Shown here: piece after piece, positions 1 to 29,360 of the stretch
Position numbering within the stretch: position 1 is the first letter of the stretch
Layout of the letters: each line of letters opens with the position of its first letter
IMG/VR virus record: IMGVR_UViG_3300031586_000373
Location: 1 to 37,777 of that record
DNA: 37,777 nucleotides
Reading direction: 5' to 3' (one strand)
Source of the DNA: a virus
The notes under the pieces: model-generated
The model's input: the letters and a program-made list of their open reading frames with translations, nothing else
Databases searched by the model: none
Told to the model about the DNA's origin: nothing
Translations under genes and position numbers: made by a program

Positions 1-924
1 AATCCTGCTGCGGTCCTGCCCAAGCTGATTCCCGTCGAACGCGGAAGCGAGGAGGAGCTTCTCTTCCGCTATATTTGCCTTCACTGGAGCATCCCGGTGT
101 CCTCCGGGTACGGCCGGAGACTCCGGTTCATCGTAGAGGACGCGAGCAACGGGAAGGTGATCGGCCTCTTCGGCCTCGGAGACCCAGTGTTCTCCTTGGG
201 TTCGCGCGACGACTGGGTTGGCTGGGACACGGAGACGAAAAAGCAGCGACTCTACCATGTGCTCGACGCGTTTGCCCTTGGAGCGGTACCACCGTACAAT
301 CGCCTGATGTGCGGAAAGCTCGTTGCGATGCTGGCCCTGTCTGATCCTGTACGGCAGGCTTTCCGCACGCGATACAGTGGACGCGAAACAGTAATCAGTG
401 GCGAGGTGCGTCGGCCATACCTCGCCATGCTGACGACAACATCGGCTCTGGGGCGGTCCTCGATCTACAATCGGATTCGAATCGACGGAGTTGCCTATTG
501 GCATCGGCTCGGCGCGACGGGAGGATGGGGTGACTTCCATTTCTCGAACGGAGTCTACAGTGACATCCGCGCCTATGCAGAGCGCTGGTGCAAACCGACT
601 GCCAAGAGGGAGCCCTGGGGGGATGGTTACCGAAACAAGAGGGAGGTCATCAGAAAGGTCCTGCCCAGGATCGGACTTTCCACTAATCTGGCAAATCATG
701 GGATTCAGCGAGAAGTCTACGCCGCACCTTTGGGGCGCGACGCATTGCCGTTCCTTCGCAACGAGGTCCAGCGTCCGCTGTTCTTCAATTGGACGGTACG
801 CGATCTGTGGGAGGCGTTCAGGGCACGATGGTTCTTGAAACGCGCGGAGCGGTGCCCGGACTACGTCTCGTTTGAGCGGGGGTCATACCGGCTATGGCCT
901 CCGAAGAGCCGGAGGTCAAGGTAA
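1..924 (+). CDS. druA: DruA-like DUF4338 protein, 5' truncated by window edge
   Basis: The frame is open from base 1, so the gene begins outside the window; 307 codons are visible before TAA at 922-924. Conserved DUF4338 landmarks appear in order: a PVSSGYGRRLRF segment, IGLFGLGDPVFSL, WVGWD, GAVPPYNRLMCGKLVAML, TTTSALGRSSIYNR and a GWGDFHF segment. DUF4338 is the domain of DruA from the Druantia anti-phage systems, and stand-alone copies are widespread; its biochemical activity is not something I can state. The stop codon overlaps the ATG of the NurA-like gene by one base, so the two are probably translationally coupled. An internal ATG at 97 would delete conserved sequence and is not the true start. 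Druantia helicase DruE is not seen here; HerA/NurA follow instead. Family assignment is confident, defence role is inferred from family and neighbours. Confidence 0.85.
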   Translation, partial: NPAAVLPKLIPVERGSEEELLFRYICLHWSIPVSSGYGRRLRFIVEDASNGKVIGLFGLGDPVFSLGSRDDWVGWDTETKKQRLYHVLDAFALGAVPPYNRLMCGKLVAMLALSDPVRQAFRTRYSGRETVISGEVRRPYLAMLTTTSALGRSSIYNRIRIDGVAYWHRLGATGGWGDFHFSNGVYSDIRAYAERWCKPTAKREPWGDGYRNKREVIRKVLPRIGLSTNLANHGIQREVYAAPLGRDALPFLRNEVQRPLFFNWTVRDLWEAFRARWFLKRAERCPDYVSFERGSYRLWPPKSRRSR

Positions 925-2102
925 TGGCAGGCCCCAACGAACCCAATGCCGCCAATCGCCCATTCTCTGACCTGCCGGCAGGACTGGTTGAGGAGGTGCT
1001 GGCCAAAGCCACTCAGGTCGGCAGTCACCTTCTGGACGATTTCACCCACATGAAGCGCGATAAGGCCGCACTCCGTCAGAAGCTTGAGGACGCGAGGCTC
1101 ATCGCACACGAGTCTGAGCTGCCCAGCCCGCAGATTCCGACGACATGTGCGGCTGACGGGTCATACGCAATTGAGCGCCTGCTGGCGGCGGACCTCGCTG
1201 CCGCGGCGGCCGTTGCGGTTGAGGGGCTGACACCCCCAAGCGAGACCCGGCATTGGGAAGCACCGCACCACCGGACCTTCGTTCGAGCTGAAGTCCACCA
1301 CGATGGTACGGGGACCGTCTTGCGGGCCGTAATGCTCGGTCGTGAGCTAGAGCTTGCCGCGTCTGCACCGCATGACCTAGTTCTGCTCGACATGACGCTC
1401 ACGCTGCCCGTGATCTACTTCAACCAGGCGTTTGCCAAGGCGCAGGAGATCAATCGCGAACTTGGACTAGGCCAGGTCGCCTGTGTTGCCGAGTTCCAGC
1501 AGAATGCCCTTGAGTTCGTGCGGCACTACCGAGCAATCTTGAAGTGCGAGAGGTCTGACAAGGCGTTCGTTGGCCTTCCCAAGTACTCGACGCGACGAGA
1601 GATCGGTGAGACCGCTGGGTGGCCATCGCATCACGATGACCGGTCGCTCCTCACGCTTCTCTTGCGGCCCGGCGAGTATGTTCGGCCACAAGCACTGGCT
1701 GACAGCGACTTTCATCTGCGCACGCCAATGCCCAGTGGCGCTGCCACTGACGCTGCCAAGGCAGTTGCCGTGGACATCGTCGGAGCCCTGAGAGAGATGA
1801 AGGTTGTGTACTATCGTCCCCATGGATTCCTCCCCGCACTTCGGGTGGAACTGCCAGCAGCTGTTGCGGACAATGTCCACAGGCTCGCAACTGTGCTGAG
1901 AGGGCTGAAGGAACAGTCAGTCGTCTCGTCCATGCTAGAGCCGTACCCCCTGTACATGGCCGACCGGATGGCCAAGTCCTTGGCCGCTGCCATTCCCGCC
2001 TTCCGGCAGGTGGCAACCCAGAGGATCAGCGCCGACTACGAGGGCGACATTGGGGAAGTGTTCTTCGCAATGCACGGATACCGTAGCGAAGGCGGCCGAT
2101 GA
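924..2102 (+). CDS. nurA: NurA-type nuclease
   Basis: A 392-residue protein with NurA-family landmarks: D78-G79-S80, a second acidic site at D156 in a VLLDMTL strand, a GLPKYS segment near K221, and the C-terminal YPLYMADRMAKS segment at about 341-352. NurA enzymes are Mn-dependent nucleases that dock on a HerA hexamer and process DNA ends; the HerA-like gene directly follows, which strongly supports the call. I chose ATG 924 because it overlaps the preceding stop as TAATG and has GGAGG about nine bases upstream; ATG 894 is an alternative giving 402 residues. The 3' end overlaps an alternative start of the HerA gene. In this setting the pair more likely serves DNA degradation in defence than archaeal-type recombination, which is inference. 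Confidence 0.82.
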   Translation: MAGPNEPNAANRPFSDLPAGLVEEVLAKATQVGSHLLDDFTHMKRDKAALRQKLEDARLIAHESELPSPQIPTTCAADGSYAIERLLAADLAAAAAVAVEGLTPPSETRHWEAPHHRTFVRAEVHHDGTGTVLRAVMLGRELELAASAPHDLVLLDMTLTLPVIYFNQAFAKAQEINRELGLGQVACVAEFQQNALEFVRHYRAILKCERSDKAFVGLPKYSTRREIGETAGWPSHHDDRSLLTLLLRPGEYVRPQALADSDFHLRTPMPSGAATDAAKAVAVDIVGALREMKVVYYRPHGFLPALRVELPAAVADNVHRLATVLRGLKEQSVVSSMLEPYPLYMADRMAKSLAAAIPAFRQVATQRISADYEGDIGEVFFAMHGYRSEGGR

Positions 2103-2113
2103 AGGAGCATACC

Positions 2114-3943
2114 ATGGCCAATAGCGACTCGACAGAGGCGGGCACGCGGAACCTGGACAAGGTGGTATCGGATACGGAACGCCTCGGCGTGCTGGGCTCG
2201 CCATCGCGGACCTCCGAGCTTGCTGTCGACGTTGTCGGGACCGCCGTTGGCCGAAAACTTGTGGGCGAGCTGGCGATGTTCGCCTTCCAGCAGGACGGGG
2301 TTCCGCACTACGCACTTGGCCAAATCACGGAAATCGAACTGCGCAATGTCTGGCACGAGGATCCGACGATGCGGTCCCTGATTCGCCAACGGGGGCGTGT
2401 CGACGCCGTCAGCGAACGCCAGGACACTCATCTCGGCAAGATGACGATCAGTGCCGTCTTCAAACAGGCGGAGATCGTGTCATCCACGTCAGGACAAAGG
2501 GATGGATCGAGTTACGAGCCGAGCATAATGGGAACGGTTCCCTCGACGGGCACTGCTATTCACCTCGTCAACGATGAGATCCTGGAGACGCTGCTCCATC
2601 GGTACAGAGACCAGATCTTCTATCTGGGTCATGTTTACGGCTCCACTCCGAAGTTGCCCTTGTGGTTCAAGCAGTTCGGAAGCGGCCCCGATGGCGCAGG
2701 AGAGGCATATCACCTTGGCATCTTTGGCAAGACGGGCAGCGGAAAAAGCGTACTTGCTAAGATGGCCTTATGTGCATATATGCGCTACAAGCAAATGGGG
2801 CTTCTGATCCTTGATCCACAAGGCGAGTACGCAAAGGACTTCCGGGGTCGCGGCAGCGGGCAGATGAGAATGCCGCTTGCGTCAATTGCCAAGCAGTACG
2901 GCAAGCAGGTCGTCACCTTGTCGGTACGCAACCTTGTGCTGGACCGATGGGAACTGTTCCAGGAGATCCTCTTCGAGAGTGATTTCTTCCAGCAACTCAC
3001 CATGCCGAAGGGAGACAATAGGCGCGACGCATGTGCTAAGCTGGCGGACGAGCTGCGAAAGAAGAAAGTCAGGCTGGATGCCTTGAACAGTCGAACCGCG
3101 TTCGATGCTGCCTGGTCTATCCTTGCCGACCCGAAGGTGCAGCAGGTGTTCTACCGCACACCATTGAGTCGTAGCCGCTTCGAGTCAGCCAGGTCCGACG
3201 CGGATCCCGACGAATTCTATGCTCGCTTCTGGCAGCCTGTCACCGCTCTCTTCGACAGATCGCGTAGTGGTGCACGGACGGTAGAGCGTGCACTGGAATG
3301 GCTGCTGGATGTGGATTCCGCGAATGACGTGCGGCCAGTGCTGGTCATAGACCTGTCACGTGAGCAGGCCGAAGGGCTCCTGTGGAACGACATGATCCAG
3401 TCGCTTGTGATCAAGCGTTTGCTAGATGGCATCACTCTGACAGCCGAAAGGCGGTTTCAGGAAGGTGAAGAGAAGGGACTGAACACCCTGGTGCTCATAG
3501 ATGAAGCGCATCGCCTTGCACCACGGCATCTCCCGGAGAACGGAGACGCTGCCGCAGGCGTTCGCAGCGTGCTTATCGACGCCGTTCGGACGACGAGAAA
3601 GTATGGCCTCGGGTGGCTCTTCATCAGTCAAACACTCAGCTCACTTCACACCGAGATCCTTCAGCAGCTCCGTATCCAGTTCTTCGGTTTCGGCCTCTCG
3701 ATGGGGCAGGAGTTCCAGGCCCTCCGTCAGCACGTTGGCGGAGACGATGCAGCCCTACGTTTGTATGGACTGTTTCGCGATCCGCACTCCTCCTTTGACG
3801 TCAGCAGTCGGCAGTACTCGTTCATGACCACTGGCCCAATCAGCCCGCTATCGTTCGCGGGCACGCCGCTGTTTCTCAATGCTTTCAACACGGTCGACGC
3901 GTTCCTGTCGGCGAACGGCTTGGCCGAGACCGAAACAGGGTGA
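2114..3943 (+). CDS. herA: HerA-type hexameric DNA translocase ATPase
   Basis: A 609-residue FtsK/HerA-superfamily ATPase. An N-terminal beta-rich region (about 35-150, HAS-barrel-like) precedes Walker A GKTGSGKS at 205-212, an LDPQGEY segment at 233-239, and Walker B/DEAH at 461-466 (LIDEAHRLAP). DAVRTTRKYGLG and a downstream ISQTLSSL segment match the sensor region typical of HerA. Such ATPases form hexameric rings that pump duplex DNA and feed a partner nuclease, here the adjacent NurA-like protein. ATG 2114 is preferred because AAGGAG lies six bases upstream; ATG 2099 overlaps the previous stop and would add five residues. HerA with SIR2 or DUF4297 partners is an established anti-phage arrangement; HerA with NurA plus DruA is not one I recognise. 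Confidence 0.85.
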   Translation: MANSDSTEAGTRNLDKVVSDTERLGVLGSPSRTSELAVDVVGTAVGRKLVGELAMFAFQQDGVPHYALGQITEIELRNVWHEDPTMRSLIRQRGRVDAVSERQDTHLGKMTISAVFKQAEIVSSTSGQRDGSSYEPSIMGTVPSTGTAIHLVNDEILETLLHRYRDQIFYLGHVYGSTPKLPLWFKQFGSGPDGAGEAYHLGIFGKTGSGKSVLAKMALCAYMRYKQMGLLILDPQGEYAKDFRGRGSGQMRMPLASIAKQYGKQVVTLSVRNLVLDRWELFQEILFESDFFQQLTMPKGDNRRDACAKLADELRKKKVRLDALNSRTAFDAAWSILADPKVQQVFYRTPLSRSRFESARSDADPDEFYARFWQPVTALFDRSRSGARTVERALEWLLDVDSANDVRPVLVIDLSREQAEGLLWNDMIQSLVIKRLLDGITLTAERRFQEGEEKGLNTLVLIDEAHRLAPRHLPENGDAAAGVRSVLIDAVRTTRKYGLGWLFISQTLSSLHTEILQQLRIQFFGFGLSMGQEFQALRQHVGGDDAALRLYGLFRDPHSSFDVSSRQYSFMTTGPISPLSFAGTPLFLNAFNTVDAFLSANGLAETETG

Positions 3944-3955
3944 CGAACGAACGAG

Positions 3956-4846
3956 ATGTGGTCCCTGGCCCGTGTAGCTGACTCTGTGCCGCGTCGCGCG
4001 TCCGGCATGTTAGAAGAGATGCTTGTGAAGCCCCGGGAACCAAGCCTTCCGAAATCGGTTGTTGATGAGATAGACGCGTGGCTTCCGGCCGTGCTCCCCC
4101 TGTGGAAACGACTGGTGCACCGGACGGTCCACGGCCCGCTCTTGCCGGAGGAGGCCGAGCACCTGCATCTGGCGGCCGTATGTCTCCATGACCTCGCGGA
4201 CACTTTGCAGACTGCGGCGAAGGCACTGTGGTGGGCGAAGCACGACTGGCTATGGGTGGCCGTTCACCGCGAGAAGCCGAACCGACAATGGGCAGTCCAC
4301 TATTCGCGCTTTCACTTTGACTACGCGGCCATCGCGCTGTCTGCCGCCTCCAACCACTTGGCTTCAGCGATGTGGCATCTCGAGGAGAAGGTGCGGGCAC
4401 CACTGGGGCGAGGCTACAAGACGGCCGCCGGTGCGAGCGGTGCCTGGAAGGACAGGAAGCCGTCGCCACCTCAATCGTGTGGAATTCTCGACGAGCTACT
4501 GAACGATGCGGCTTGGACGGTAGTGTCTGAGTACCGGAACCACTGGGTGCACAGAGGACTGCCGATAATAGCCGGCGAAGTCCGGCAGCAACGGAGGCAG
4601 ATCTGGCAAGATGTGGGCGACCCGGCTCCAAATGTGCCGTGGATGATGAAGCGCGAGACCCAGGACGGCCGGGTCTGCTACATGGTGCAGTACGACGAGC
4701 CGCAGTTCCGCATGGAGGAGTTGCTGGACAAGGGCGCGTTGGCCCTACAGGGCATGATCCGCGCGGTTGAGAGCTTCTTGACGCTCTACGACGCGGCCTA
4801 CCGAGAGCACGGAATCAGCTTCGGCGAGGATGCCGGCGGCACATAA
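3956..4846 (+). CDS. Putative HEPN-like protein in the DruA-NurA-HerA operon
   Basis: A 296-residue protein, mostly predicted helical and rich in Trp and His. Its most informative feature is R194-N195-H196-W197-V198-H199 within a SEYRNHWVHRG segment. This matches the R-(polar)-x3-H form of the RX4-6H motif that marks active HEPN ribonucleases, and lies in a helix after a long helical N-terminal region, as expected. HEPN proteins commonly act as RNA-cleaving effectors in defence and toxin systems. The gene starts 12 bp after herA with no promoter visible, so it is probably the last gene of that operon. It could instead be an immunity, regulatory or structural HEPN; the domain call rests on one motif plus helical character. 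No homologous name is recognised. Confidence 0.6.
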   Translation: MWSLARVADSVPRRASGMLEEMLVKPREPSLPKSVVDEIDAWLPAVLPLWKRLVHRTVHGPLLPEEAEHLHLAAVCLHDLADTLQTAAKALWWAKHDWLWVAVHREKPNRQWAVHYSRFHFDYAAIALSAASNHLASAMWHLEEKVRAPLGRGYKTAAGASGAWKDRKPSPPQSCGILDELLNDAAWTVVSEYRNHWVHRGLPIIAGEVRQQRRQIWQDVGDPAPNVPWMMKRETQDGRVCYMVQYDEPQFRMEELLDKGALALQGMIRAVESFLTLYDAAYREHGISFGEDAGGT

Positions 4847-7724: not shown

Positions 7725-7740
7725 TCCGCATGTGGTCGCA

Positions 7741-7806
7741 GCTTCGGTTGGCACCCACGCCACGCCTCCCGGCCACGGGAGATCCCAAGTGGACACCAAC
7801 CGAAGC
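7741..7806 (+). promoter_or_regulatory. Inverted repeat enclosing the RBS and GTG start of the sigma-like gene
   Basis: GCTTCGGTTGG at 7741-7751 is the perfect complement of CCAACCGAAGC at 7796-7806. Inside lies a second perfect hairpin, CTCCCG (7766-7771) with CGGGAG (7776-7781), whose right arm is the GGGAG ribosome binding site; the GTG start is at 7789. The fold would hide the translation start, so translational control of the sigma-like protein is plausible. Confidence 0.5.
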
Positions 7807-8424
7807 ATCAACCCGCAGTCAGTCGTTTCTGATCCTTTCACTGTCACCTTCATCCGCATCAAGGCCAAGCAGTTGTGCCGCCGCACGGACGTGTCGCGGT
7901 CGGATCTGGAGGACCTGCAACAGGAGATGAGGCAGTACCTGCTGGAGAAGGCCCACCTGTTCGACCCCGAGCGCGGCAACGTCGAGGCCTTCGTCACCAA
8001 CGCGATTAACACCTGGGTGGCGATCTACCTGCGGCGCCAGGATCGCGAGAAGCGCCGCGACGCCCACAAGGCGGCGTCCCTGGAGCGCACGCACGTCGAG
8101 TGCAACGGTGACGTCCGCCCCTTGGGCGAGACCATCCTCGAAGAGGAGGCCCATCGCCGGCTTCAGACCGAGTTCCGGTCTGACATCGAGCAGTTCGAGC
8201 TGCGCGAAGACGTCCAGCACGTCCTGGCCGCGCTCAGTCAGGACGAGCGGGACCTGCTGGCCCACGTCGCCGAGCATGGCATGACCAGCGCCGCCCGGGC
8301 CCGCGGCACCTCCCGCCGGCAGATCCGCAATGCCATGGCGCGCATCCGCCACGCCTTCGAAAAAGCCGGCCTCGGCTCCGAGGGAGCGGACCGCGCCGTC
8401 GCCGGCGGCATAGGTAACCCATAG
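7789..8424 (+). CDS. Sigma-factor-like protein of the phage
   Basis: A 211-residue protein resembling a small sigma70-type factor. Residues about 35-95 resemble region 2 (SDLEDLQQEMRQYLLEKA, FDPERGN, AFVTNAINTWVAIYLRR), and residues about 140-192 resemble region 4 with a helix-turn-helix (ALSQDERDLLAHVAEHG, TSRRQIRNAMARIRHAFEKAG). Region 4 normally contacts the -35 element, so it may direct phage genes. I chose GTG 7789 because GGGAG lies seven bases upstream; ATG 7732 would add 19 unusual residues and run through the hairpin. The final codons and stop lie inside the 19-bp repeat that recurs at 24,729. It could also act as an antitermination or regulatory relative of sigma factors; the sigma-like fold is the firmer part. 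Confidence 0.72.
   Translation: MDTNRSINPQSVVSDPFTVTFIRIKAKQLCRRTDVSRSDLEDLQQEMRQYLLEKAHLFDPERGNVEAFVTNAINTWVAIYLRRQDREKRRDAHKAASLERTHVECNGDVRPLGETILEEEAHRRLQTEFRSDIEQFELREDVQHVLAALSQDERDLLAHVAEHGMTSAARARGTSRRQIRNAMARIRHAFEKAGLGSEGADRAVAGGIGNP
8406..8424 (+). repeat. Copy 1 of a 19-bp repeat upstream of the recombination genes
   Basis: CGGCATAGGTAACCCATAG ends exactly at the stop of the sigma-like gene and recurs without change at 24,729-24,747. The core GGTAACC is palindromic and the flanks extend it to an imperfect 13-bp dyad (ATAGGT/ACCCAT). It lies 75 bp before the ExoVIII-like gene. Similarity upstream of the exact repeat is weaker (18 of 25 bases from 8388, including the first few bases of the exact repeat). 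Confidence 0.6.
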
Positions 8425-21093: not shown

Positions 21094-21294
21094 GTGAGCG
21101 ACCCCGCGCCCAGCCTGACGGCGCTGACGGTGGCCCAGGCCGCGAAGGTGCTCTCGGCGGCCGGCGGCCGGCGGATCACCGAGGCGATGCTCCGGGCGGA
21201 CATCGACGCCGGCGCCCCGGCCAACGCCGACGGCACGATCAACCTCGTCCACTACACCGCCTGGCTCGTTCGGGAGGTCTCCGGTGGCGATTGA
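21094..21294 (+). CDS. Small protein before the terminase, possible terminase small subunit
   Basis: A 66-residue protein from GTG 21094, with AAGGAG six bases upstream; an ATG at 21028 in the palindromic region is less likely. The sequence looks like a helix-turn-helix (LTVAQAAKVLSAAGGRRITEAMLRADIDAGAP) followed by VHYTAWLVRE. Its stop lies 11 bases inside the terminase gene. The position and helix-turn-helix character suggest a DNA-recognition role in packaging, but it is shorter than usual small subunits. Confidence 0.55.
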   Translation: MSDPAPSLTALTVAQAAKVLSAAGGRRITEAMLRADIDAGAPANADGTINLVHYTAWLVREVSGGD

Positions 21295-23548
21295 CCCCCG
21301 CAGCTTGCGGCCGTCGATGCTGACGCGGATGCTCAACTCCACGCCGCTGGGCGAGGTCATCAGCGAGCGCCAACTCCGCCGGCACCGCAACCGCGCCGGC
21401 TACCGCATCGGCGACGAGAAGCGCGTGGACCTGCTGCGCTACGCCGCCTGGCTGGCGTGGCTGCGCCACAACCCCGCACCCGCCAAGGAGCCTGCCGACT
21501 ACGAGGCGGTCAAGGAGGCCGCCCGGGCCCGCAACGCGGAGCTGTCGGCCATCGGCCGGGACATCGGCGAGATCCCCGAGGTGGTCGACCCCGAACGGAA
21601 GGCCGGCGCGGAGACGAGCTTCCGGTTCTTCTGCGAGGCGTACTTCCCCCGGACCTTCAGCCTGCCGTGGTCGGACGACCACCTGAAGGTCATTGCCAGG
21701 ATCGAGCAGGCCGTGCTGCGGGGCGGGCTGTTCGCCATGGCCATGCCGCGCGGCAGCGGCAAGACCACGCTGGCCGAGACGGCCTGCATCTGGGCGATGC
21801 TGACCGGCGCCCGCGAGTTCGTCTGTCTGATCGGCTCGGACGCCGGGCACGCCCGCAGCATGCTGGAGAGCATCAAGGTCGAGTTTGAGACCAACGACCG
21901 GTTGCTGGAGGACTACCCCGAGGCCGTCTACCCCATCCACGCCCTGGAGCGGATTCACAACCGCGCCAAGGGCCAGCTCTGCAACGGCCGGCACACCCGG
22001 ATCGTCTGGACGGCCGACGAGATCGTCCTGCCGACGATCCCTGACTCCAAGGCCTCCGGCGCCATCATCCGCGTCGCCGGCATCGAGAGCCGTATCCGCG
22101 GCATGAAGTTCAAGCGCGCCGACGGCCGGGCGGTGCGGCCCTCGCTAGTGGTCCTGGACGACCCGCAGACCGATGAGTCCGCCCGTAGCGACCAGCAGGT
22201 CCGGTCCCGGATGGAAACCCTCAACGGCGCGATCCTGAACCTCGCCGGCCCCGGCGAGAAGATCTCGGGGATCATGCCCTGCACGGTGATCCGCCCCGGC
22301 GACATGGCCGACCAGATCCTCGACCGCGACAAACACCCCGCCTGGCAAGGTGAGCGGACGAAGCTCGTGTATGCGTTCCCGACCAACGAGAAGCTTTGGC
22401 AGCGCTACGCCCAGGTCCGCGCCGACAGCTTCCGCAACGGCGGCGACGGCCGCGAGGCCACTGAGTTCTACCACGCCCATCGCCAAGAGATGGACGCCGG
22501 CGCTGCCGTCGCCTGGCCGCAGCGGCACAACGCCGACGAGCTGTCGGCCATCCAGCACGCGATGGACCTCAAACTCCAGGACGAGCGGGCCTTCTGGGCG
22601 GAATACCAGAACGAACCGCTGCCGGAGGATGAAGGCGACCCCGACCAGCTCACCGCCGATCAGATCGCCGCCAAGGTCAACGGCTACGCCCGTGGCGAGA
22701 TACCAATCGGGGCCAGCCACTTGACGATGTTCATCGACGTCCAAGCCAAGCTGCTCTTCCACGTCGTGGTCGCCTGGGAGGACGAATTCACCGGCTACGT
22801 GGTCGATTACGGCACGTATCCCGACCAGCGGCGGGCGTACTTCACGCTGCGGGACGTCCAGAAGACCCTCGGCCGGGCAGCGCCCGGGACGGGCTTGGAA
22901 GGTTCGATCTACGCCGGGCTGGAGAAGCTGACCGGCGAATACCTGCCACGCCGCTGGCGGCGCGACGACGGCGCGGAGCTGCAGATCGAGCGCTGCCTGA
23001 TCGACGCCAACTGGGGCCAGAGCACGGACGTGGTGTACCAGTTCTGCCGCCAGAGCGGGCATTCTGCCATCGTCATGCCTAGCCACGGGCGCTACGTCGG
23101 GGCTTCCAGCGTGCCCTTCAGCGAGTACAAGCGGAAGCGCGGCGAGCGCGTCGGCCATCACTGGCGCATCCCCAACATCGCCGGCCGCCGCCAAGTCCGC
23201 CACGTGCTGATCGACACGAACCACTGGAAGAGCTTCATCCAGGCCCGCCTGGCCGTGGCCATGGGCGATCCGGGGTGCCTGTCGCTGTTTGGCCGCAAGC
23301 CCGCCGAGAACCAGCTCCTGGCCGACCACCTCACCGCCGAGTACCGCGTGCGGACCGAGGCCCGGGGGCGGGTGGTGGACGAATGGAAGCTCCGCGCCGG
23401 CGGCCCCGATAACCACTGGCTGGACTGCCTGGTCGGCTGCGCCGTGGCCGCCTCCATCCAGGGCGCGGTCCTACCGGGCACCGACGCCAAGGCGGCGCCG
23501 GTGCGGCAGCGGGTCAAGCTCTCGGAGCTGCAAAGGACCAGGCGATGA
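21284..23548 (+). CDS. terL: Phage terminase large subunit
   Basis: A 754-residue packaging motor. Walker A MPRGSGKT is at 154-161 and the Walker B acidic pair is in LVVLDDPQ near 288-295. The C-terminal nuclease domain has an MFIDVQAKLLFHVVVAW strand, CLIDANWG near the middle and a closing DNHWLDCLVG, the three acidic positions expected of RNase H-like terminases. The N-terminal 110 residues form an extra helical, DNA-binding-like part, making it longer than the usual 450-650. It translocates phage DNA into the prohead through the portal. The start is GTG 21284, overlapping the previous gene. Gene order terminase-portal-protease is as in lambda-like phages. Confidence 0.9.
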   Translation: MAIDPRSLRPSMLTRMLNSTPLGEVISERQLRRHRNRAGYRIGDEKRVDLLRYAAWLAWLRHNPAPAKEPADYEAVKEAARARNAELSAIGRDIGEIPEVVDPERKAGAETSFRFFCEAYFPRTFSLPWSDDHLKVIARIEQAVLRGGLFAMAMPRGSGKTTLAETACIWAMLTGAREFVCLIGSDAGHARSMLESIKVEFETNDRLLEDYPEAVYPIHALERIHNRAKGQLCNGRHTRIVWTADEIVLPTIPDSKASGAIIRVAGIESRIRGMKFKRADGRAVRPSLVVLDDPQTDESARSDQQVRSRMETLNGAILNLAGPGEKISGIMPCTVIRPGDMADQILDRDKHPAWQGERTKLVYAFPTNEKLWQRYAQVRADSFRNGGDGREATEFYHAHRQEMDAGAAVAWPQRHNADELSAIQHAMDLKLQDERAFWAEYQNEPLPEDEGDPDQLTADQIAAKVNGYARGEIPIGASHLTMFIDVQAKLLFHVVVAWEDEFTGYVVDYGTYPDQRRAYFTLRDVQKTLGRAAPGTGLEGSIYAGLEKLTGEYLPRRWRRDDGAELQIERCLIDANWGQSTDVVYQFCRQSGHSAIVMPSHGRYVGASSVPFSEYKRKRGERVGHHWRIPNIAGRRQVRHVLIDTNHWKSFIQARLAVAMGDPGCLSLFGRKPAENQLLADHLTAEYRVRTEARGRVVDEWKLRAGGPDNHWLDCLVGCAVAASIQGAVLPGTDAKAAPVRQRVKLSELQRTRR

Positions 23549-23730
23549 CCAAGGCAGGCCGAGCCGAGAGTCTGACGAAGAAGCGCGGGCTGGAGTGCCC
23601 CCGGTGCGGCTGCGCCCACTTCCGCGTGCTCTACACCCGCCCAGCGTCGGGCGGGCGTCTGCTACGCCGTCGCGAGTGCCGACATTGCGGGCGGCGAATG
23701 ACGACGTACGAGCGGCCGGCGGGCGGCTGA
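23545..23730 (+). CDS. Small zinc-ribbon protein
   Basis: A 61-residue protein overlapping the terminase stop by four bases. C18-P-R-C21-G and C45-R-H-C48-G form a classic zinc ribbon with an intervening beta-rich basic segment, like the N-terminal ribbon of NrdR or phage Ogr/Com-type small regulators. Coupling to the terminase suggests a role in late control or packaging. No further function can be assigned. Confidence 0.7.
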   Translation: MTKAGRAESLTKKRGLECPRCGCAHFRVLYTRPASGGRLLRRRECRHCGRRMTTYERPAGG

Positions 23731-23763: not shown

Positions 23764-24549
23764 TCAGGGACTACGAGACTGGCGAGTCCCTTCTGGACCA
23801 TCGTCCTTCTGTGCCCCCGCATCAGCCTCCTCGACGTCCTCGAAGTCAGATTCCTTCAGCACACCCTCGCGGAGCAGCAGGTTGAAAAGATCCGGACTAT
23901 ACGTGAAAGCCCCGGTAGTGAACCCACACCCCAGGGCCTCCACGATCAGGGAATTGGTCAAGCGGTAAACCTCTACTGCGTCCTGCTGTGCTTCCTCGTG
24001 GGAAGAGAGGTAGTCATGGATGTGCTTGTTCCGAAGCTCGCGGACGCGGCCGAAGCTTCGGGCTGCATCAGCGCCTATCGCTCCCAGTCCCTGCAGTAGG
24101 TCGATGCGCCGGCTCTGGGACAGGTCTCGTACCTTCTTGCCGAAGATCCGCCGTTCGCGGCTCTTTGACATCCGTTTTCCCCCAATCGTGACCGGGCGCA
24201 TCTCGAACAAGAGCAATGTGAGTACCTCACAGACAACCCCACACAGAGCTATCGTTGCCAGGTAGTCCGCCAGGACGTACGCAGATCGAGCGTGGCGAAG
24301 CGGCCAAAAGATGGATTGCAGGATCTCCCCCTTCCCCGGAGCGTGGCAGATCCTCGTCGTGTTAGCCGAGATCTCCTCGTACCTTCTGAGCAGATCCTCA
24401 GGCTTGTGCCCCTGGCACGGAGTACACAGGTACTCGACCGCCGACCGATATGTTGGGGGCCCGCTTTTCCGGCCGGCCATGGCCATTTGTGCGTCGATCC
24501 ACTCGACCGGCTGAATGAAGATGGGTCCCGTGTACCGTTTCGCCGCCAT
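23764..24549 (-). CDS. Cargo (moron) gene: HEPN-like RNase-type protein
   Basis: A 261-residue protein on the - strand between terminase and portal, where lambda-like phages have only head genes. R173-N174-K175-H176-I177-H178 in RVRELRNKHIHDYLSS matches the R-N-x3-H form of the HEPN RX4-6H active motif. A hydrophobic helix (about 90-117, YVLADYLATIALCGVVCEVLTLLLF) may be buried or membrane-related, and CTPCQGH near residue 42 is a Cys pair. The acidic tail (ESDFEDVEEADAGAQKDD) is odd for the phage. ATG 24549 has GGAGGAGG eight or more bases upstream. Its codon use is visibly less G+C biased than neighbours, and it has its own promoter candidate: signs of transferred cargo, probably anti-phage or superinfection function. 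Confidence 0.7.
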   Translation of the reverse strand: MAAKRYTGPIFIQPVEWIDAQMAMAGRKSGPPTYRSAVEYLCTPCQGHKPEDLLRRYEEISANTTRICHAPGKGEILQSIFWPLRHARSAYVLADYLATIALCGVVCEVLTLLLFEMRPVTIGGKRMSKSRERRIFGKKVRDLSQSRRIDLLQGLGAIGADAARSFGRVRELRNKHIHDYLSSHEEAQQDAVEVYRLTNSLIVEALGCGFTTGAFTYSPDLFNLLLREGVLKESDFEDVEEADAGAQKDDGPEGTRQSRSP

Positions 24550-24588
24550 GTCGCCACCTCCTCCCCCGGCACGGTCGCCGGTCGCTGG

Positions 24589-24617
24589 ATTGTCCTCGGT
24601 CTACGCACGCTGATCAA
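24589..24617 (-). promoter_or_regulatory. Promoter candidate for the HEPN-like cargo gene
   Basis: On the - strand, TTGATC (24612-24617) and GACAAT (24589-24594) are separated by 17 bp, 40 bp upstream of the ATG. Each hexamer matches four of six consensus positions. An own promoter is what a cargo gene expressed from the prophage state needs. Confidence 0.35.
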
Positions 24618-24728
24618 CGCTCCTTGACGGCTGTCCGCGCGGGCTGGCAGCTGCGCAGGTTCTAGATGCGGAACGATCTTGGGGGCCTGAGCAGATCTCC
24701 GGCCTTTGCCGGACCGCTCCGCGCGCCA

Positions 24729-24771: not shown

Positions 24772-24969
24772 ATGGCCGAAGACCTCGACAACACGATCCG
24801 CGACAACGCCTCCGGGCCCAAGCGGGCCTCGGGCGATTCCGGCAGCGTGGAGCAGCACTCCGTCAACGACCAGATCGCCGCCGACAAGTACCTCGCTTCC
24901 AAGCAGGCCGCCCGCGGCAAGGGCCTGGGCGTCAAGCTGGCGAAGATCTCGCCGGGGGGAACGGTCTGA
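24772..24969 (+). CDS. Small protein preceding the portal gene
   Basis: A 65-residue hydrophilic protein with a Ser/Gly-rich middle (SGPKRASGDSGSVEQHSVNDQIAADKYLASKQAA). Its position right before a lambda-type portal is that of gpW-type head-tail joining proteins in lambda, but the sequence does not show a clear gpW signature, so I leave the function open. The stop overlaps the portal ATG by one base. GGCGAC precedes the ATG; translation is probably coupled to the portal. Confidence 0.55.
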   Translation: MAEDLDNTIRDNASGPKRASGDSGSVEQHSVNDQIAADKYLASKQAARGKGLGVKLAKISPGGTV

Positions 24970-26426
24970 TGTGGCCCTTCGGCAAGTCCAGGGGGCGCGC
25001 CTCCCGCGGCAACGCCGGACACCGCCCGCCCCTGCGTGTGGTCCTGCGGGCCCGCTACGACGCCGCCCAGACCACCACGGAGAACGCCCGCCACTGGGCG
25101 ATGGCGGATTCGCTGTCGGCCGACGCGGCCAATTCCCCCGACGTCCGGCGCAAGCTGCGACAGCGGGCCCGCTACGAGGTCGCCAACAACTCCTACGCCA
25201 AGGGGATCGTCCTGACGCTGGCCAACGACTGCATCGGCACGGGCCCGCGGCTTCAGTTGCTCACCGAGGACGCGGAGGCCAACCGGCGCGTGGAGGCCGC
25301 CTTCGCCGAGTGGGCCCGCGCGGTCGACCTGGCCGGGAAGCTGCGGACGATGCGGATGGCCAAGGGGACCGACGGCGAGGCGTTCGCCGTCCTGACCAGC
25401 AACCCCGCTCTCGAAACCCCGGCCAAGCTGGACCTACGCCTGGTCGAGGCCGACCAGGTCGCCAGCGCCCGCCCCTACCCCCCGATGCCCAACGAGGCGG
25501 ACGGCATCGTCTTCGACGCGTTTGGCAACCCCGTGGCCTATCACGTGCTCAAGGCCCATCCCGGCGACCGGCTGCGAGCGCCGGCCCTGAAGTACGACCG
25601 GATCCCCGCCGAGTCGATGGTTCACTGGTTCCGCCCCGACCGGCCGGGACAGCATCGCGGCGTCCCCGAGATCACGCCGGCGCTGCCCCTGTTCGCGCAG
25701 CTGCGCCGCTACACGCTGGCGGTGCTGGGCGCTGCAGAGACGGCCGCGGACTTCGCGGCGGTGCTGTTCACCGACGCCCCGGCCAGCGGCGAGGCGGCGG
25801 CCGTCGAGCCGATGGACGTCGTCGAGCTGGAAAAACGCATGGCCACAGTCCTGCCCGACGGCTGGAAGCTCGGGCAGATCAAGGCCGAACAGCCGGGGAC
25901 AGGGTACGGCGAGTTCAAGCGGGAGATCCTCAACGAGATCGCCCGCTGTCTGAACATGCCGTTCAACGTCGCCGCCTGCAATTCCAGCGGCTACAACTAC
26001 GCCTCGGGGCGCCTGGACCACCAGACATACTTCAAGAGTATCCGCGTCGAGCAGTCCCACCTCGCCGAGATGGTGATGGACCGCGTCCTCGCCGCCTGGC
26101 TGGCCGAGGCGGCGCTCCTGGGGGACTTCGCGTTCCTGCACGGCCTGGGCGAGCTGCCCCACCAGTGGTTCTGGGACGGGATGGAGCACGTCGACCCGGC
26201 GAAGGAGGCGACCGCCCAGGAGAAGCGGCTCAAGAACAACACGACCACCCTCGCGGATGAGTACGCCAAGCAGGGCAAGGACTGGGAGGCGCAGATCCGC
26301 CAGCGGGCAAAGGAAAAGCAGCTCATGGCCGAGCTCGGCCTGACCGAGGCCCAAGCGGCCCCGCCCCCCGGCGAGGCCGAGGACGACGAGGAGGCCGAAG
26401 GCGAGGTGGACCGTGCCGCTGCCTGA
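24969..26426 (+). CDS. Lambda-type phage portal protein
   Basis: A 485-residue portal of the lambda B family. The landmarks are an N-terminal RYDAAQTTTENARHWAMADSLSADAANSP segment, a long helix with RQRARYEVANNSYAKGIVLTLANDCIGTGPRLQ, a LRLVEADQVASAR strand, a HWFRPDRPGQHRGVPEITPALPLF loop and the helical stem after it. It forms the dodecameric ring at one head vertex through which DNA passes and on which the connector assembles. The C-terminus is acidic (EAEDDEEAEGEVD). The gene ends inside the fused protease-capsid gene (14-base overlap). Confidence 0.9.
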   Translation: MWPFGKSRGRASRGNAGHRPPLRVVLRARYDAAQTTTENARHWAMADSLSADAANSPDVRRKLRQRARYEVANNSYAKGIVLTLANDCIGTGPRLQLLTEDAEANRRVEAAFAEWARAVDLAGKLRTMRMAKGTDGEAFAVLTSNPALETPAKLDLRLVEADQVASARPYPPMPNEADGIVFDAFGNPVAYHVLKAHPGDRLRAPALKYDRIPAESMVHWFRPDRPGQHRGVPEITPALPLFAQLRRYTLAVLGAAETAADFAAVLFTDAPASGEAAAVEPMDVVELEKRMATVLPDGWKLGQIKAEQPGTGYGEFKREILNEIARCLNMPFNVAACNSSGYNYASGRLDHQTYFKSIRVEQSHLAEMVMDRVLAAWLAEAALLGDFAFLHGLGELPHQWFWDGMEHVDPAKEATAQEKRLKNNTTTLADEYAKQGKDWEAQIRQRAKEKQLMAELGLTEAQAAPPPGEAEDDEEAEGEVDRAAA

Positions 26427-28631: not shown

Positions 28632-28973
28632 ATGGCAACGGCAACGTTCGTGCATGACGGCAGCAGCATCGACTACACGCCCGGTTCGGCAGTCGCCGCG
28701 GGCGACGTTGTGGTTCAGGCCGACCTGATTGGCGTGGCCCGGACTCCCATCGCGGCCAACGCCCTGGGGGCCCTGGCGGTGGCGGGCGTCTTCGACGTGC
28801 CCAAGACGGCCGGGGTCGGCGAGGCCATCGCGGTCGGGTCCAAGGTGTACTGGGACGTGGCCGACCAGGTCGCCAAGACCGACGACGAGTCGGGCGCCAA
28901 CAAGTACCTGGGCAAGACGGTCAAGGCCGCCGGCGACGACGACACGGCCGTCCGGGTCCGTCTGGAGCAGTAG
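28632..28973 (+). CDS. DUF2190 capsid decoration protein
   Basis: A 113-residue protein matching DUF2190: ATATFVHDGSSIDYTP, AVAAGDVVVQADLIGVA, ALAVAGVFDVPKTAG and YWDVADQVAKT, all beta strands. Such proteins sit on the capsid surface as decoration or stabilising proteins. ATG 28632 follows GGAGAA with about six bases between. It is directly after the capsid gene, the usual place. Confidence 0.8.
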   Translation: MATATFVHDGSSIDYTPGSAVAAGDVVVQADLIGVARTPIAANALGALAVAGVFDVPKTAGVGEAIAVGSKVYWDVADQVAKTDDESGANKYLGKTVKAAGDDDTAVRVRLEQ

Positions 28974-28976
28974 TCC

Positions 28977-29360
28977 TTGGCGGACCTGCTCGAACAAGCC
29001 GCCTCCTGGTTGGACGACCAGCGCGTCGCCCACATGGCCCGGACGGTCAGCTACGTCCGGGGCGCTGAGTCGGTGGAGGTCGCCGCCACGCTGGGCAGCA
29101 CGACGTACGAGGTCACCGATGACGCCGGCGCGACGGTGCAGGCTAAGGCCACCGACTTCATCGTCTCGGCCAACGCGCTGATCTTGGGCGGGCAGGCGGC
29201 GAAGCCCCAGCCGGGCGACCGCATCGACGTGCCGAGCGGCGGAAAGGTGCTGGTCTTCGAGGTGATGGACCTGGGCGGCGCCGGGCATTACCGCCCGGCC
29301 GACCCCTACGGCAAGGTGCTGCGGATTCACGCCAAGCAAGTAGACGAGGAAGAGCCCTGA
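28977..29360 (+). CDS. Head completion / head-tail adaptor-like protein
   Basis: A 127-residue beta-rich protein with TTG start at 28977, three bases after the DUF2190 stop. An N-terminal helix (LLEQAASWLDDQRVAHM) is followed by YVRGAESVEVAATLG, AKATDFIVSANALI, and GDRIDVPSGGKVLVFEVM strands. The place after the decoration protein and before tail-completion genes suggests a lambda FII-like or Gifsy-2-type adaptor. The stop overlaps the next ATG by one base. Assignment is positional and by fold pattern. Confidence 0.6.
   Translation: MADLLEQAASWLDDQRVAHMARTVSYVRGAESVEVAATLGSTTYEVTDDAGATVQAKATDFIVSANALILGGQAAKPQPGDRIDVPSGGKVLVFEVMDLGGAGHYRPADPYGKVLRIHAKQVDEEEP

Follow-up and report, generated by a model that had tools for sequence, protein, structure and literature searches.

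The cargo gene and its neighbours

The window analysed here (the whole 37,777 nt of IMG/VR virus record IMGVR_UViG_3300031586_000373) carries, between genes for the terminase large subunit (TerL; 21284–23548, plus strand; GpA nuclease domain, GpA_nuclease 2e-28) and a lambda-family portal protein (24969–26426, plus strand; PF05136, 1e-61), an open reading frame (ORF) of 261 aa on the opposite strand (23764–24549; start ATG, stop TGA), as the initial annotation had reported. This cargo gene, with a capsid gene also among its neighbours, is convergent with a small gene ~34 nt away that bounds the slot on the left and whose 61 aa product (23545–23730, plus strand) is a standalone zinc ribbon of the NrdR type (PF22811, 5e-12). 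Next to the cargo gene on its 5' side comes a conserved dyad, GTTCTAGATGCGGAAC (24659–24674), which is shared with relatives and forms the right border, and then the adaptor and portal genes. The adaptor, whose function is assumed from its position, is a 65 aa protein (24772–24969, plus strand) that is conserved in nearly all related gaps and had no PHROG or Pfam match.

The G+C content of the three codon positions in the cargo ORF (0.63/0.46/0.71) is of coding type on its own strand, and the third-position value (GC3) of 0.71, compared to 0.93–0.94 in the TerL, portal and capsid genes, agrees with the less G+C-biased codons noted earlier; the codon usage of the gene is foreign relative to the flanking head genes. 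A Shine-Dalgarno-like sequence, GGAGGAGGT (24556–24564, minus strand), lies 6 nt upstream of the ATG and is predicted to be a strong ribosome-binding site. The gene had also been credited with a promoter of its own, for which there is a candidate, but a weak one: the sigma-70-like TTGATC-17-GACAAT (24589–24617, minus strand) agrees with the consensus at 8 of 12 positions, below the 9/12 threshold at which a promoter scan found none for this gene, and ~3% of random 130 nt places in the window score at least as well. As a cargo promoter it is only suggestive.

Gene turnover in the terminase-portal slot

Searches with the TerL and portal proteins of the window gave 234 related loci, found in viral contigs and in bacterial genomes. 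Most of these genomes are of Planctomycetota, and complete chromosomes (CP050848, CP036432 and CP036272 among them) are included. Since relatives lie in complete chromosomes the lineage includes integrated prophages, and we infer from these relatives that the window phage, itself a virus record, is temperate. The initial annotation had read the locus as having the signature of a cargo locus, and comparison of the gap among relatives bears this out. The 185 distinct TerL-portal gaps (a sample with near-duplicate loci such as L161 and L162, and possible misbinning in MAGs) have a median length of 574 bp, and 65 of them are enlarged by > 400 bp, with contents that differ between relatives, compared to 0/152 and 2/157 at the nearly invariant flanking gene junctions. 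Far from being syntenic in all relatives, the cargo gene of the window is absent from the other 184 gaps, and the slot is empty in many close relatives (TerL 87–89% identity). That the gap is a true cargo hotspot, with high turnover between conserved phage genes, is thus strongly supported.

Among the slot cargo ORFs of relatives we found AbiEi (9/80), AbiEii (8/80), HipA (3) and REase-ARP (2), these being raw counts, together with TIR, GmrSD_N, a DpnII-MboI-type restriction endonuclease (REase) and a P4-type Beta protein. The last (L118:9861-10952) matches the Beta protein family PF14350 at 9e-77, and the beta of P4 belongs to the gop-beta-cII defence system (PMC9122126). Also present are HTH partners of HipA, AAA_14/DUF4143 and pentapeptide/ion channel proteins, and a Phycisphaerales relative holds a small minus-strand protein (L198:7714-8169) with an RN-x3-H motif (RRNSLIH) and no Pfam match. 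By raw presence, AbiE, HipA, TIR, REase, GmrSD_N and Beta are all defence families, and much of the slot cargo assigned to named families is, by these matches, of defence or toxin-antitoxin type. The cargo is not only defensive, since the slot of Rhodopirellula rubra (L206:12340-17011) holds a regulator, a rhodanese-like protein and a phosphate-transport (Pst-like) operon, as read from their translations. A rule that cargo lies on the minus strand was rejected: it applies in the nearest clade only (8 vs 1, with two of the eight being near-identical copies), and outside that clade cargo strand is unbiased.

Because the slot genes of relatives differ and many are of defence or toxin-antitoxin types, the slot looks like a store in which dormant viruses keep weapons for use against their viral rivals. 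Phage defence hotspots have been described mainly in Enterobacteria, and the phages of Planctomycetota are little studied. We found no description of a TerL-portal slot in planctomycete phages in open papers (most subscription papers being outside this scope), and the slot is apparently undescribed; prophage HEPN effectors and phage defence hotspots are both already known. A precisely bounded prophage slot in Planctomycetota can be mined directly for candidate defence genes, among them short genes without annotation such as the HEPN-like one, and makes it testable how prophages with such genes avoid self-harm.

The slot resembles the hotspots of P2 and P4 (PMC9122126) in its size of about 1–5 kb, its position between two conserved phage genes, its high turnover and its TIR, HEPN, restriction and P4 beta-type cargo. 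The P2 slot lies between a replication gene and portal gene gpQ, beside cos, whereas the planctomycete slot extends from TerL and the zinc ribbon to the adaptor and portal genes.

Borders of the slot

In the interval from zinc-ribbon stop to adaptor start, 34 of 146 loci (compared to 4 of 2920 in shuffles) and 27 of the 40 loci with TerL > 80% have a GTTC-N8-GAAC dyad, which lies 106–158 nt (median 115) upstream of the adaptor ATG. The distance from zinc-ribbon stop to dyad is a median of 18 nt in empty relatives and 928 nt in the window, and in occupied close relatives where the dyad was found the cargo lies to its left. There are two combinations of zinc ribbon and dyad, TYE-type with GTTC-N8-GAAC and TREK-type with TACCA-N4-TGGTA (L004, L007, L002 and others); all 11 TACCA-N4-TGGTA dyads accompany a TREK-type ribbon, and the types of ribbon and dyad switch together even where TerL is 88–89% identical. 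Neither dyad is present in over half of distant loci. This co-variation points to the dyad as a binding site of the zinc ribbon, shared ancestry being the alternative explanation, and makes the two a candidate late-gene regulator and operator.

Relationship of the cargo protein to HEPN families

Proteins of the HEPN superfamily have a fold of four to five helices, a dimer cleft and metal-independent RNase activity. Their motif is Rx4-6H, usually with N, D or H after the R (PMC3710099), and R173-N-K-H-I-H178 of the cargo protein has this form. The loose Rx4-6H pattern is expected by chance in this protein (P = 0.82 in shuffles of its sequence) and is uninformative; the stricter RN-x3-H occurs once (P = 0.007 in the same shuffles). 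Three Pfam families overlap on residues 131–194, with the motif inside: DUF4145 (PF13643; residues 139–194, E 4e-4) and, on the segment around R173–H178, Cthe_2314-HEPN (E 0.006) and HepT-like (E 0.025). All three are HEPN families (PMC3710099), and all three matches fall below the curated cut-off, so that the protein is not a member of DUF4145 by its threshold (20.7 bits vs 23.1), while resembling it in having R-polar-x3-H at the family's motif position. PADLOC and PHROG returned no match for the protein, and a PDB sequence search gave nothing significant. An AlphaFold2 model built from the single sequence, without an alignment, is helical with pLDDT 45, and a fold search of the PDB with it gave no significant matches.

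A whole-genome search of 392 Planctomycetota genomes recovered two homologues, a sporadic distribution: L241 (E 6e-24, 32% identity, motif RRQYLH), which adjoins a DUF4917/SIR2-like gene, and L242 (E 1e-11, motif RTRIVYYH, with shifted spacing). Neither matched a Pfam family. Scans of viral and genome contigs yielded no close relatives, and tblastn against phages and plasmids gave chance-level matches only. A profile of the three sequences reached marginal Pseudomonadota proteins, L246 (RNQYIH, with a weak DUF4145 match) and L245/L248 (RNYIH), which support the profile only partly because they were retrieved with it. As to whether the motif residues are conserved, R and H are retained in L241 and L242, but N is lost.

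The HEPN-like character assigned initially thus has the support of three HEPN families on one segment, none of them above its cut-off, and of the R and H retained in the two homologues. We regard HEPN identity as moderately supported; it is unconfirmed because all Pfam matches are sub-threshold and fold prediction gave no usable result.

Proposed function

We propose that the slot of these temperate planctomycete phages is exchangeable and is occupied here by a single-gene effector of HEPN type through which infections by rival phages are aborted, a reading to which we give roughly even chances. The protein would be made in the lysogen from its own weak promoter and would dimerise through a HEPN domain (residues about 88–207), in which R173 and H178 would make up an RNase site that needs no metal. 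Its activity may have to await a trigger from an incoming phage, for which the N-terminal region is perhaps the sensor; the protein would then cleave RNA and the infection would be aborted.

There is a precedent in Tha of staphylococcal prophages, a single-gene prophage HEPN defence with the motif RNSIMH (PMC11087260). Like the cargo gene, Tha-1 of Staphylococcus phage 80alpha (301 aa; PMC11087260) is a single gene in a prophage with opposing transcription around it, and in both proteins an N-terminal region without known domain is combined with RN-x3-H in the C-terminal part. Homology was rejected (BLASTP E 0.14, off the motif; hhalign probability 0.3%) and the likeness is therefore one of architecture only. 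Tha is part of the cI operon and is accompanied by an inhibitor gene in antisense, whereas the cargo gene, placed between terminase and portal, has no known inhibitor gene. By analogy with Tha, and from the company that the cargo gene keeps, ribonuclease-mediated exclusion of competing phages is plausible.

The cargo gene runs antisense to the late operon, and its expression may therefore fall when the home prophage is induced and transcribes its late genes. Silencing by late antisense transcription would be no general rule of the slot, as beyond the nearest clade cargo shows no preference for either strand. An extension of this idea, which we think unlikely, is that the slot lies between a phage-encoded activator, the NrdR-type zinc ribbon, and its dyad at the head-gene promoter, such that cargo antisense to the late operon, like this gene, is expressed in the lysogen and shut off by late read-through once the prophage is induced; if true, this would give immunity without autoimmunity through genome position, with no dedicated inhibitor needed.

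Among the alternatives, there is perhaps one chance in a few that this is a helical protein of HEPN/DUF4145-like type that has no catalytic activity or a regulatory role, be it in RNA binding or as an accessory, and that its gene is a moron benefiting the host in some other way. Members of DUF4145 occur in varied contexts (PMC3710099), the homologues lack the N of the motif, the motif spacing is shifted in L242, and the L206 slot holds metabolic genes; both homologues nevertheless keep R and H, and much of the named-family cargo is of defence or toxin-antitoxin type. We find it less probable again that the protein is a HepT-like toxin of a toxin-antitoxin pair serving prophage stability and not defence. 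The weak HepT-like match and the occurrence of AbiE and HipA/HTH pairs in the slots of relatives point that way, but the insert contains one filtered coding ORF, with no second one beside it that could be MNT or another antitoxin, and the score against the HepT equivalog (NF047751) is 13.4 bits compared to a cut-off of 60. It is improbable that the protein is helical but has a different fold and owes its RN-x3-H to chance: that motif, for all its shuffle probability, occurs in four of the 124 cargo ORFs, and two of these four are clearly not HEPN proteins, and the PDB holds no significant relative by sequence, yet three independent HEPN models cover the one segment that contains it and its R and H are conserved. 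Chance long ORFs are frequent in this GC-rich window, but a spurious antisense ORF can practically be dismissed given the coding codon pattern, the Shine-Dalgarno-like sequence, the homologues in other genomes and the lack of any such ORF in the other 184 gaps.

Other features of the window

The initial annotation drew attention to a second protein with the same type of motif, and this exists (3956–4846, RNHWVH), but it shares only the motif, which makes the argument a weak one: it has no Pfam match and was rejected as a relative of the cargo protein for want of sequence similarity. It belongs to the left end of the window (97–4846), along with DruA (Pfam 4e-87), NurA and HerA, where GC3 is 0.69–0.76 compared to ~0.93 in head genes and which reads as a second foreign, defence-like block. 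A second enlarged junction, gp28632-gp28977 (window 28973–28977), follows the capsid-downstream gene and is enlarged in 15 of 100 relatives (L142, L201 and others); it was rejected as a swapped-defence slot, its contents being mostly same-strand phage-like or secreted-protein-like ORFs. The phage also encodes a sigma-70-like factor of its own (7732–8424; Sigma70_r2 7e-6, PHROG sigma 4e-9).
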